NCBI GenBank assembly: GCA_025964255.1 | Contig: JAOPZF010000035.1 | Location: 1 to 51,099 of the forward strand | Direction of reading: 5' to 3' | DNA: 51,099 nucleotides | From: Solirubrobacterales bacterium | Lineage (GTDB): Bacteria; Actinomycetota; Thermoleophilia; Solirubrobacterales; 70-9 | Shown here: positions 21,940 through 32,444 of the stretch, one piece after another | Layout of the letters: every line of letters begins with the position of its first letter | Numbering within the stretch: the stretch's first letter is position 1 | The notes under the pieces: model-generated | What the model was told of the DNA's origin: nothing | The model's input: the letters and a program-made list of their open reading frames with translations, nothing else | Databases searched by the model: none | Translations under genes and position numbers: made by a program

Positions 21940-23055
21940 ATGTCTGAAAACGTACTCATCACTGGCGGCGCCGGCTTCATCGGTTCGCACCTCGCCCGAC
22001 ACCTGCTGGGCCAAGGAAAAAGGGTCCGCGCACTCGACAGCCTGGACCGTCAGGTCCATCCTGAGGGGCGACGGCCGCGGTACCTGGACGACGAAGTCGA
22101 GTTGATCGAGGGCGATGTGCGCGATCGCGACACGGTCGAAGGAGCGCTGCAGGGGATCGATGCGGTAGTGCACCTCGCGGCCCGGGTCGGGGTCGGCCAG
22201 AGCATGTATGAGATGGCCGAGTACTGCTCGGTCAACACCTTCGGGACCAGTGTGCTGCTCGAGGGTCTGATGGATAGACCGGTGCGCAGGCTCTTGGTCG
22301 CATCAAGCATGAGTGTGTACGGCGAGGGGCTGGTGCGGACCGAGGACGGCGAGCCCGCCCTGGCGCACGAACGTACGCGTGAGCAACTCGAACGTGGCGA
22401 ATGGGAGCCGCGCACGCCCGACGGCAAGGTCCTGGTGCCGCTGCCGACGCCGGAGGACAAACCACCGAGCCTCTCGTCGATCTATGCCCTCAACAAGTTC
22501 GACCAGGAGCGGATGTGCCTGCTGTTCGGTGCCTCCTATGGCGTCCCGACCACGGCGCTGCGCTTCTTCAACGTCTACGGGCCTGACCAGGCGCTCTCGA
22601 ATCCGTACACCGGGGTCCTCGCGATCTTCGCCGGGCGCCTGCTGAACGGACGGCCGCCGCTGATCTTCGAGAACGGCGAGCAGCGGCGGGACTTCGTCAG
22701 CATCCACGACATCACCCGGGCCTGCGCGCTCGCGCTCGACAGCGAGCGTGCGGCGGGGGAGGTCGTCAACGTCGGCAGCGGCGAGGTCGTCACCGTGAGC
22801 GAAGTTGCACGACGGCTGGCGGAGGTCAGCGGCCGTGGTGAGATCGAGCCCGTGGTCACCGGCAAATATCGGGTCGGCGACATCCGCCACTGCTTCGCCG
22901 ACATCTCCAGGGCGCGCGAGTTGCTCGGGTATGAACCGCAGGTCGACCTCGATACCGGGATGGCAGAGCTGGCCGAGTGGCTCGAGGGGCAGACCGCCGA
23001 GGATCAGGTCGAGTCGGCGCACGACGAGCTCGCGGCGCGGGGTCTGACGCTATGA
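21940..23055 (+). CDS. NAD-dependent epimerase/dehydratase (dTDP-L-rhamnose 4-epimerase-like)
   Basis: Extended SDR acting on a nucleotide sugar, 371 residues. The NAD site is TGGAGFIGSHLARHL at residues 8-22; the catalytic region has SSMSVYGEG and YALNKFDQE (Tyr-x3-Lys). The insert of about 45 residues between these, with ERGEWEPRTPDGK, is typical of the WbiB/dTDP-L-rhamnose 4-epimerase type in my recollection. First gene of nine overlapping genes; its stop overlaps the next ATG as ATGA. It supplies a modified sugar nucleotide for the glycosyltransferases downstream (inference). Confidence 0.87.
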   Translation: MSENVLITGGAGFIGSHLARHLLGQGKRVRALDSLDRQVHPEGRRPRYLDDEVELIEGDVRDRDTVEGALQGIDAVVHLAARVGVGQSMYEMAEYCSVNTFGTSVLLEGLMDRPVRRLLVASSMSVYGEGLVRTEDGEPALAHERTREQLERGEWEPRTPDGKVLVPLPTPEDKPPSLSSIYALNKFDQERMCLLFGASYGVPTTALRFFNVYGPDQALSNPYTGVLAIFAGRLLNGRPPLIFENGEQRRDFVSIHDITRACALALDSERAAGEVVNVGSGEVVTVSEVARRLAEVSGRGEIEPVVTGKYRVGDIRHCFADISRARELLGYEPQVDLDTGMAELAEWLEGQTAEDQVESAHDELAARGLTL

Positions 23056-24107
23056 GCGTCGCGGTGGTGACCGGGGGCGCCGGCTTCATCGGAACGAACC
23101 TGGCCGACCGGCTGCTGCGCGATGGCGAGCGGGTCCGGGTCGTCGACGACCTCTCGCGGCCCGGGGTGGAGGGCAACCTGCGCTGGCTGGAGGCCCGGCA
23201 CGGCGACCGCCTCGAGGTGGCGCTCGGCGACCTGCGCGACCCCGGGGTGGCCGCGGCGGCAGTGGACGGCGCCGGGAGCGTCTTCCACCTCGCGGCGCAG
23301 GTGGCCGTGACGACGAGCCTCGACGAGCCGCGCCACGACTTCGAGGTCAACCTCGGAGCGACGATCAACGTGCTCGAGAGCGCCCGTGCCCAGGCCCGTC
23401 CGCCGGCGCTCCTGTTCACCTCGACCAACAAGGTCTACGGCGACCTTGCTGACATCGCCCTCCGCGATAACGGCGCCCGCTACGAGCCGCTCGACGAGGA
23501 GATCCGCCGCGCCGGCGTATCCGAGGCGCGGCCGCTGGACTTCAGCACCCCCTACGGATGTTCGAAGGGGGCGGCCGACCAGTACGTCCTCGACTACTCC
23601 AAGAGCTACGGCCTTTCGACGGTCGTCTTCCGCATGAGCTGCATCTACGGTCCCCACCAACAGGGCACCGAGGACCAAGGCTGGGTTGCCCATTTCGCCC
23701 GCAGCGTGCTCGCCGGGGATCCGATCACGCTCTATGGCGACGGCCGCCAGGTGCGCGACCTGCTCTACGTCGAGGACCTGGTCGAGGCGATGCAGGCGGC
23801 GCGTGAGCGGATCGGCGAGCTCTCCGGCCACGCCTTCAACATGGGCGGCGGCCCGGGGCAGGCGGTCAGCCTGCACGAGGTGATCGAGCAGATCGCGGTT
23901 CTCGGTGAGGCCTCGCCGGAGGTCCGCTTCGGCCCCTGGCGGACCGGTGACCAGCGCTACTACGTGAGCGATACGTCGCGCTTCCAGGGGGCCACCGGAT
24001 GGCGTCCGCGGGTCGCGCCGGCGCGCGGCATCGAGCGCCTGCACGCTTGGCTGCGCGAGGCGTACGCCGCCGACGGCGCGGCCAGCCGGGTGCCGAGCAC
24101 CGTCTAG
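23052..24107 (+). CDS. NAD-dependent epimerase (CDP-paratose 2-epimerase-like)
   Basis: Second extended SDR, 351 residues, starting at ATG 23052 inside the previous stop. NAD site TGGAGFIGTNLADRLL; the block TSTNKVYGDLADIAL and the active-site YGCSKGAADQYVLDY strongly resemble CDP-paratose/tyvelose 2-epimerases; VFRMSCIYGPHQQGTEDQGW is the matching substrate loop. It therefore probably epimerises C2 of a deoxy or related NDP-hexose. The exact substrate is not proven. Coupled to both neighbours. Confidence 0.87.
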   Translation: MSVAVVTGGAGFIGTNLADRLLRDGERVRVVDDLSRPGVEGNLRWLEARHGDRLEVALGDLRDPGVAAAAVDGAGSVFHLAAQVAVTTSLDEPRHDFEVNLGATINVLESARAQARPPALLFTSTNKVYGDLADIALRDNGARYEPLDEEIRRAGVSEARPLDFSTPYGCSKGAADQYVLDYSKSYGLSTVVFRMSCIYGPHQQGTEDQGWVAHFARSVLAGDPITLYGDGRQVRDLLYVEDLVEAMQAARERIGELSGHAFNMGGGPGQAVSLHEVIEQIAVLGEASPEVRFGPWRTGDQRYYVSDTSRFQGATGWRPRVAPARGIERLHAWLREAYAADGAASRVPSTV

Positions 24108-31111: not shown

Positions 31112-31902
31112 GCCGCTGCCGCCAGCGGGGCGGCGGCCGGCAGAGGAGCGAAGGCCCGATCGGCCAGCTCCAGCACCGTCGGCGTCAGCAGCCGTTCGAA
31201 CCGCGGATCACCGCGAAAGGCGTGCCAGCGGCGCAGCACCGGCATGCTCTCCGCCCGGCCGTCGTAGGCGGTCCCGTCGAAGGAGCTGCCGCCGGCGACC
31301 GGCGGGACGACGTGAGCCGCGCGGTCGTCGAAGCGCAGGCCGAGCGCCTCGGCCACCCGCCGCCGGTAGTCGGCGTCGGTGGCCCAGTCGTTGTAGCTCA
31401 GCATCAGGCGCTCCTGGCGCAGGTTGCGGCGCAGGCCGAGGAACTCGCGGGCGTGCTGACACCACACCCGCGCGACGAGCTCGTCATCGAGCCAGCCGTA
31501 GCCCGAGGCGAGGCGGCTGGCGAAGAGGTTCCAGGGATCGCGGAGGATCAGCAGGTCGATCCGCCGCGCGGAGCGGCCGACGGCGGCGCCGAGCAGTGCC
31601 TCGTTGGCGGCCTTCTTGAACGGGCCGAGGAAGGTGTCCTCATAGCTGTGGACGAGCAGGTCCTTGCGGCTCAGTCGCCCTGCCCGCTCGGCGGCGAGAT
31701 CGAAGTCGTCGAAGCTGGCCAGATGGCCGGGACGATCGGGAGCCAGCGGTCGGGCCGAGAGGAACGGGTTGGTGCCGGGCTCGGCACAGTTCAGGAAGCA
31801 GGCGCGGCCCTCGGCCTGGGCGAGGATCCAGTTGATGATCGCGTGGTTGCCGCTTCGCGACATGCCGACCACGCGGATCTCGGTCTTGTTCGTGGTCCTC
31901 AG
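31108..31902 (-). CDS. Sulfotransferase-like protein (CTG start)
   Basis: A 264-residue P-loop protein resembling PAPS-dependent sulfotransferases. The 5'-phosphosulfate loop-like motif is VVGMSRSGNHAIINWIL and the 3'-phosphate motif is LRDPWNLFASRLASG. No ATG, GTG or TTG fits the start: the GTG and ATG inside the loop would delete the first strand. A CTG at 31902 overlaps the upstream stop as CTGA and gives a complete first strand, so I use it. It is paired with a 2-oxoglutarate oxygenase on the same strand and converges on the glycan operon, suggesting sulfation of the same product. Confidence 0.75.
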   Translation of the reverse strand: MRTTNKTEIRVVGMSRSGNHAIINWILAQAEGRACFLNCAEPGTNPFLSARPLAPDRPGHLASFDDFDLAAERAGRLSRKDLLVHSYEDTFLGPFKKAANEALLGAAVGRSARRIDLLILRDPWNLFASRLASGYGWLDDELVARVWCQHAREFLGLRRNLRQERLMLSYNDWATDADYRRRVAEALGLRFDDRAAHVVPPVAGGSSFDGTAYDGRAESMPVLRRWHAFRGDPRFERLLTPTVLELADRAFAPLPAAAPLAAAA

Positions 31903-32444
31903 GTCGGATCCGACTCGGTCAGCCAGCGGAAGTAGACGCCGTAGCGAAGCGTGCCGGTGCGGTTGACGCCCCCGGAGTGCGGCAGGTCGGGCGTCATCAT
32001 GATCGCGTCGCCGGGCTCGGCCTCGACCGGCATCGCGCCCTCGGCCGTCTGCACAAGCAGGCCGCCGTTCTCCTCCCGCCACGGGCTCAGCGGCACGCCG
32101 ACGATCCGCCGGTAGTGGCGGCCGTCGGCCCAGGCGGGCTCCTGGTCGAGGTGGAAGCTGATCTCCGGCGCGGGTCCGACGTGGGGGAACTGGAGCAGGA
32201 TCTGGGGGTCGCAGATGCGCCCGCTCGTCCACTCCGGGGGCAGCGCGTCGGCCAAGGCGAGGATCTCCTCGCGCTCGTTCAGGTGCGGGAACCAGTGGAC
32301 GCTCCAGAGCCATTCGCCGAGCTCCTCCGCCGAGGCCCCGCGTTGCAGCAGGTCGAGGTGCAGCATCCGCAGCGCCGCGTCGACCCGCTCCTGAGGTACC
32401 ACGTTCCGCGCGACCTCAAATGAACCGCTGACTGGGAGATTCAT
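31899..32444 (-). CDS. 2-oxoglutarate/Fe(II) dioxygenase (PhyH-like)
   Basis: A 181-residue double-stranded beta-helix oxygenase. Iron ligands appear as His98 and Asp100 in EISFHLDQEPAW and His156 in PDLPHSGGVNR; Arg167 in GTLRYGVYFRW would bind 2-oxoglutarate. ATG 32444 has GGAAGG upstream. Such enzymes hydroxylate small molecules, lipids or sugars. Its stop overlaps the CTG start of the sulfotransferase, so hydroxylation followed by sulfation is a natural hypothesis. Confidence 0.83.
   Translation of the reverse strand: MNLPVSGSFEVARNVVPQERVDAALRMLHLDLLQRGASAEELGEWLWSVHWFPHLNEREEILALADALPPEWTSGRICDPQILLQFPHVGPAPEISFHLDQEPAWADGRHYRRIVGVPLSPWREENGGLLVQTAEGAMPVEAEPGDAIMMTPDLPHSGGVNRTGTLRYGVYFRWLTESDPT

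Follow-up and report, generated by a model that had tools for sequence, protein, structure and literature searches.

The contig JAOPZF010000035.1 of a Solirubrobacterales bacterium (assembly GCA_025964255.1) carries a compact operon of nine genes for sugar-nucleotide, glycosyl-transfer and methyl-transfer enzymes, and raises the question of what this cassette makes. The window, by which we mean the whole 51,099-nucleotide stretch that was analysed, is the full length of C130, one of the 277 contigs that make up a 4.0 Mb draft genome with a completeness of 90.9% and a contamination of 6.5%. We propose, with moderate confidence, that the cassette makes a small O-methylated oligosaccharide, most likely on or with inositol, in the cytosol or at the inner membrane, and possibly in relation to stress. 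The parts of this proposal differ in strength. The product is very likely an O-methylated oligosaccharide and likely stays in the cell, while the chances that inositol is its acceptor or a component are about even.

The nine genes (Table 1) occupy positions 21940-31111 of the plus strand. Inspection of the open reading frames confirmed that, as the initial annotation had claimed, stop and start overlap at every one of the eight junctions, in the four-base form ATGA (23052, 26028, 28204, 29277 and 30344) or GTGA (25048 and 27092) at seven of them and as TAGTG, with a single shared base, at 24107. The functions that it had given to the operon genes were borne out by Pfam and NCBIfam, the Pfam domains being those of two NAD-dependent epimerases, a zinc dehydrogenase, a Gfo/Idh/MocA oxidoreductase, a GT4 glycosyltransferase, three glycosyltransferases with the CgeB-type domain PF13524 and a class I methyltransferase. 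No obvious transmembrane stretch was found in the nine proteins, among which the zinc dehydrogenase has the highest hydropathy, located within its nucleotide-binding fold. Four-base overlaps are commonplace in operons; the feature clearly beyond chance is the conservation of the gene order.

Relatives of the cassette were collected by scanning an alignment of three methyltransferase proteins over a collection of 84,980 species, which gave at least 570 related stretches. From these, 80 loci were kept by methyltransferase similarity, forming an uneven sample in which many loci end at contig borders. All nine genes lie on one strand in 46 of the 80 loci and follow the exact order of the window in 40, and the hosts include Actinomycetota, Bacteroidota, Pseudomonadota, Desulfobacterota and Gemmatimonadota. 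The close packing is also kept, a four-base overlap between the second and third CgeB-type genes being possible in 47 of 69 loci, and gene 3 adjoins gene 4 in most loci. The proteins in other loci are ~50-70% identical to that of gene 1 and 53-73% identical to that of gene 7, and gene 6 is a separately conserved orthologue in about 70 loci. A tree built from the three CgeB-type proteins and the methyltransferase largely reproduces the phyla and places the window in the Actinomycetota, with support of 98-99 for the nearest sets. Within the host's own class the gene is rare, the TIGR04290 cut-off of the methyltransferase being passed in only 3 of 199 sampled genomes.

The cassette is an old unit common to bacteria of many phyla, and we are nearly certain that the nine genes form a real, conserved operon and belong together as one unit. 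The view of the initial annotation, one functional unit that makes and O-methylates a glycan, is supported, and the gene-order search that it had suggested showed the arrangement to recur across many genera. The objection that it had anticipated, a gene order found only here, fails for this reason, and confinement of the operon to a single genome is ruled out by the at least 570 related stretches and the 40 loci in exact order. A phage origin was also considered and rejected: the second CgeB-type protein had no phage match, and the methyltransferase had one weak partial match. In Ramlibacter terrae (L120) and Geotalea toluenoxydans (L121), tblastn splits many cassette genes into several fragments that follow one another, as frameshifts or poor sequencing would produce.

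In the open-licence literature we found neither the pathway nor its product described, in line with the earlier statement that no such pathway is known, although a subscription-only paper could exist. That statement needs to be narrowed for single proteins, as two proteins of the cassette already have an NCBIfam model, TIGR04290 (meth_Rta_06860) and TIGR04295 (a B12-binding radical SAM protein). The S. meliloti locus tags SMb2023x-2024x turned up in a single paper of the open literature, which names only the sugar-transporter gene SMb20231. In the passages located in the Ramlibacter genome paper, unassigned axial-bond glycosyltransferases appear and the cassette cluster is not described (PMC3164672).

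Among solved structures, gene 1 comes closest to the C4 epimerases (GalE/WbpP/UDP-GlcA class). For gene 2 (SDRb), the initial label of a CDP-paratose-2-epimerase-like protein proved right: the best matches in the PDB are the CDP-tyvelose 2-epimerases 9rl0 and 1orr (262 and 253 bits), and the next solved short-chain dehydrogenase/reductase scores 136 bits. All 50 cassette copies retain the TNK motif and the Tyr/Lys pair (YxxxK). Position W210 of TaTyvE, by contrast, is a histidine in the window and in 45 of the 50 copies; W210 is among the three aromatic residues listed for the CDP site and helps to position the cytidine in TaTyvE (PMC7851689). Because the catalytic residues are kept and W210 is replaced, the fold and the C2 chemistry are likely and the nucleotide is less certain; judged by its resemblance to CDP-tyvelose 2-epimerases, SDRb is likely a C2 epimerase. 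In 37 other loci SDRb has an N-terminal extension matching a glycoside hydrolase-like (GH-like) domain. The window copy is unfused, as 12 of about 49 other copies also appear to be, and a search of the source genome returned no other copy of the GH-like domain.

Gene 4 has IolG as its best NCBIfam match, far under the cut-off, and 6jw6 as its best PDB match. In Tistrella, Azospirillum, Kastovskya and plasmids of a Geminicoccaceae and a Bradyrhizobium, the slot of genes 3 and 4 is occupied by a TIGR04295 B12-radical SAM gene, and on an Acidobacteria contig such a gene precedes the GT4 gene, at which the contig is cut. TIGR04295 and the dehydrogenase-oxidoreductase pair were never found together in the stretches seen, and the exchange is an apparent non-orthologous displacement.

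The AlphaFold model of the GT4 enzyme (predicted local distance difference test, pLDDT, 95; 43 sequences) has a GT-B fold. Its top Foldseek hit is MshA, and in the VIA-align ranking no more than 1.5 Z units separate sucrose-phosphate synthase, PglA, MshA and BshA, with PimA also near (Z of 34.6 to MshA and 31.8 to PimA); by sequence, the best PDB match is PimA. These neighbours of the modelled fold would fit a small acceptor, and the search singled out no acceptor class. The products of genes 6-8 match PF13524 at 118-151 bits (cut-off 25), an assignment at the level of the domain. That of gene 9 passes TIGR04290, a family labelled as of hypothetical function, at 315.5 bits against a cut-off of 300. 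Its profile is nearest to CmoB, followed by WbdD and other small-molecule methyltransferases, including a D-glucose O-methyltransferase, and from these neighbours we infer a sugar or cyclitol hydroxyl as the methyl target. The source genome has a second, distant TIGR04290-like methyltransferase (G000:C256:3790-4410, L041) at 117 bits, below the cut-off.

The case for inositol comes from the surroundings of the cassette in its relatives. Of 42 whole genomes carrying the cassette methyltransferase, 17 have inositol-3-phosphate synthase, and 11 of these 17 have it no more than 16 kb from the methyltransferase, with about 0.14 expected within 20 kb. The linked cases represent five clades (Burkholderiales, Opitutus, Planctomycetota, Xanthomonadaceae and Myxococcota; P ~4e-7 at clade level). 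The cassette itself includes the synthase and a histidine phosphatase on plasmids of Sinorhizobium, Paracoccus, Sphingobium, Azospirillum, Roseomonas and Bradyrhizobium. The alphaproteobacterial plasmids also carry a UDP-xylose-forming UDP-glucuronate decarboxylase, missing in Azospirillum, and a GH-like "beta-xylosidase". In a Desulfuromonadales locus (L102), genes for the synthase, a GH-like protein, a phosphatase and a TIGR04290 enzyme follow one another in the absence of cassette glycosyltransferase genes, which ties the methyltransferase itself to inositol. A family of proteins of about 580 amino acids with no Pfam match recurs beside the inositol-type cassettes in about nine loci (for example L126:7380-9128, L128:19283-21043, L129:5735-7489 and L114:5496-7214).

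A link to stress is suggested by genes for DUF892 (YciF-like, ferritin-like) and DUF1003 proteins, which we take to be stress genes. In the window, a plus-strand DUF892 gene (21005-21505) precedes the operon, from which 434 bases separate it. The six DUF1003 copies present on 13 plasmid records are all found within 20 kb of the cassette (P ~2e-7, or 5e-6 when one of the two Azospirillum records is left out). In whole genomes, DUF892 is near the cassette in 3 against 0.34 expected, and DUF1003 in 2 against 0.19.

Several observations weigh against the main proposal. The synthase is absent from 25 of the 42 cassette-bearing genomes, which would therefore need imported inositol or another acceptor, and it is for this reason that we put inositol at about even. 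It was likewise not found within the stretches seen around the copies of Rhizobium etli, R. leguminosarum, Agrobacterium and Tistrella. In the source genome the synthase lies on a contig other than that of the operon, neither in nor beside the cassette, and all ten Thermoleophilia tested carry it, with the cassette or not, so that the inositol link in this host rests on its relatives. The MshA-like fold is common to hundreds of GT4 structures, whose top rows are only 1-2 Z units apart. Only on alphaproteobacterial plasmids are the stress genes strongly linked to the cassette; in chromosomes the linkage is weak. Finally, an MsbA/ChvA-like ABC exporter stands immediately 3' of the methyltransferase gene in two Opitutus loci and one Planctomycetaceae locus (L065, L068 and L099).

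This last arrangement would suit a cassette that makes a short surface glycolipid or exopolysaccharide unit, with its exporter encoded elsewhere or, in some lineages, next to it. A similar exporter lies 4 kb off in a Gemmatimonadales locus, a pyruvyl transferase is close to some cassette copies, and methylated caps are frequent on surface glycans. We nevertheless regard a surface glycan as rather unlikely: in most loci exporter, initiating phospho-glycosyltransferase and polymerase are not among the families that recur in the flanks, the window operon has none of them, and the synthase linkage is unusual for capsule loci. The initial annotation had remarked on the lack of a polymerase, flippase or ABC exporter. 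By Pfam scan this holds for the operon, the major facilitator superfamily (MFS) protein 10 kb away belonging to a separate cluster, and it does not hold for the three relatives with an adjoining exporter. As a few loci do have adjacent ABC exporters, an intracellular product is less than settled.

Two other products are improbable. The PF13524 domain in all three glycosyltransferases recalls Bacillus CgeB, for which a role in decorating a surface or spore-crust protein has been proposed, and the cassette might accordingly glycosylate a protein of this kind. This likeness, however, is to a broad glycosyltransferase domain, many of the hosts do not form spores, and no gene for an acceptor protein was recognised among the repeated flanking families. 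We give equally little credence to a secreted specialised metabolite resembling an aminocyclitol or pseudo-oligosaccharide. Cyclitol-making genes, a dehydrogenase pair or B12-radical SAM enzyme, glycosyltransferases and an O-methyltransferase do resemble the logic of aminocyclitol pathways, but the conserved members include no aminotransferase, resistance gene or dedicated efflux protein, and the cassette is distributed broadly and largely by phylum instead of by strain.

For the O-methylated oligosaccharide, we envisage the following route. The enzymes of genes 1 and 2 would make sugar nucleotides, with gene 2, by family resemblance, inverting C2. The zinc dehydrogenase and the Gfo/Idh/MocA enzyme would then carry out an oxidation and a reduction, with the inversion of a single hydroxyl on a sugar or cyclitol as the probable outcome; in some lineages this step would fall to the B12-radical SAM enzyme that replaces them in the same slot. 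The GT4 enzyme would perform the first transfer, onto a small acceptor that is probably inositol or an inositol phosphate, and the three CgeB-type enzymes would add about three more sugars, xylose perhaps being one of them where UDP-glucuronate decarboxylase is present. The TIGR04290 enzyme would O-methylate the product. In this host, the dioxygenase and perhaps the putative sulfotransferase-like protein encoded on the opposite strand may modify it further.

More tentatively, the cassette may stand for a widespread and unrecognised class of compounds, O-methylated glycosyl-inositol oligosaccharides that serve as stress protectants, either as solutes or as lipid headgroups, and are made by one cassette in at least five phyla; this is possible, and we would not call it probable. 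If true, bacterial physiology would gain a common class of inositol glycosides. For a colinear nine-gene pathway that spans many phyla and whose methyltransferase has at least 570 related stretches, no product is known, and the synthase linkage together with the exchange of the oxidoreductase pair for a radical SAM enzyme turns an "unknown glycan operon" into a testable chemical hypothesis.

Table 1 Features of the operon, the convergent gene pair and the variant slot in related loci
Feature	Position or loci	Strand	Assignment
Gene 1, SDRa	21940..23055	+	PF01370; NAD-dependent sugar-nucleotide epimerase, C4-epimerase-like
Gene 2, SDRb	23052..24107	+	CDP-tyvelose/paratose 2-epimerase-like, likely C2 epimerase; 9rl0/1orr 262/253 bits
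Gene 3, ADH, zinc-binding dehydrogenase	24107..25051	+	PF00107/PF08240
Gene 4, Gfo/Idh/MocA oxidoreductase	25048..26031	+	PF01408/PF22725
Gene 5, GT4 glycosyltransferase (GT-B fold)	26028..27095	+	PF13439/PF00534
Gene 6, CgeB-type glycosyltransferase 1	27092..28207	+	PF13524
Gene 7, CgeB-type glycosyltransferase 2	28204..29280	+	PF13524
Gene 8, CgeB-type glycosyltransferase 3	29277..30347	+	PF13524
Gene 9, TIGR04290 SAM-dependent methyltransferase	30344..31111	+	NCBIfam TIGR04290, 315.5 bits
P-loop-like "sulfotransferase-like" protein, putative identity	31108..31875	-	GMSRSGNHAIINW motif; downstream of dioxygenase, convergent with gene 9
PhyH-like 2-oxoglutarate/Fe(II) dioxygenase	31899..32444	-	PF05721 weak; accessory of some actinobacterial copies
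TIGR04295 in place of ADH/Gfo, slot before GT4	L049/L133, L051, L124, L129, L157, L158, L159		

The convergent minus-strand pair predicted at the end of the operon is present, and the tetranucleotide CTAG at 31108-31111 contains the stop codons of both gene 9 and the opposing gene. Sulfation and hydroxylation had been taken as part of the same unit, and here the two genes fare differently. The sulfotransferase-like protein, whose reading frame starts at 31875 (GTG) or 31863 (ATG), about 23 bases from the dioxygenase-like gene, had no match in Pfam even at an E-value of 1, in NCBIfam at 0.01 or in the PDB at 1, and its single-sequence model (pLDDT 37) is too poor for use. Neither about 90 cassette loci nor 148 further genomes from the class yielded a relative of its gene. 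Homologues of about 33% identity occur on plasmids, one of them in a Paracoccus aminovorans polysaccharide cluster beside glycosyltransferase and annotated sulfotransferase genes. The gene lies outside the conserved cassette, and the label "sulfotransferase" is an unproven guess from a motif.

The dioxygenase falls just under the PF05721 (PhyH) cut-off (21.8 against 22 bits), which its homologues in L042 and L044 pass at 28.1 and 29.7, and HxD...H...R is visible in its sequence. Because relatives (69%, 59% and 36%) adjoin the methyltransferase, in either orientation, in three actinobacterial loci (L042, L044 and L059), it is a plausible accessory in Actinomycetota.

Around the operon, the window also contains MpsC, STAS and DUF4142 genes close by. 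The MpsC domain is at 19611-20120, and the similar C-terminal end of the minus-strand reading frame at 17337-19034, as judged from the translations, suggests two MpsC-like copies. At 15912-19424, an arginine deiminase gene (minus strand) stands beside an Orn/Lys/Arg decarboxylase-family gene (plus strand). Positions 40970-50808 hold a separate, catabolic-looking group, with amidohydrolase, MFS transporter and HTH-cupin regulator genes on the minus strand, then lyase, aldehyde dehydrogenase, short-chain dehydrogenase and E1 dehydrogenase genes on the plus strand. A scan of the window returned neither an RNA element nor a tRNA.

SDRb has the TNK, YxxxK, DQGW and Q/R nucleotide-site residues of CDP-tyvelose (paratose) 2-epimerases (9rl0, 1orr; PMC7851689, PMC13098431), but differs in having histidine for W210, in its frequent fusion to a GH-like domain and in the lack of an adjoining CDP-glucose dehydratase set. 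The GT4 enzyme shares its fold with MshA and PimA, which use inositol acceptors, at an identity of only ~22-25% and with sucrose-phosphate synthase, PglA and BshA equally near. Its pairing with O-methylation recalls the cytosolic GT4 enzyme of mycobacterial methylmannose polysaccharide synthesis (7qsg, Z 33.2), whereas the other glycosyltransferase families and the sugar-nucleotide genes differ and nothing indicates a repeat-making enzyme. The PF13524 domain is shared with Bacillus subtilis CgeB; here it occurs in three colinear copies within a sugar-nucleotide operon, in hosts that are mostly not known sporulators. Lastly, gene 9 belongs to TIGR04290 and TIGR04295 fills the slot of genes 3 and 4 in relatives, but each of these models describes a single protein.

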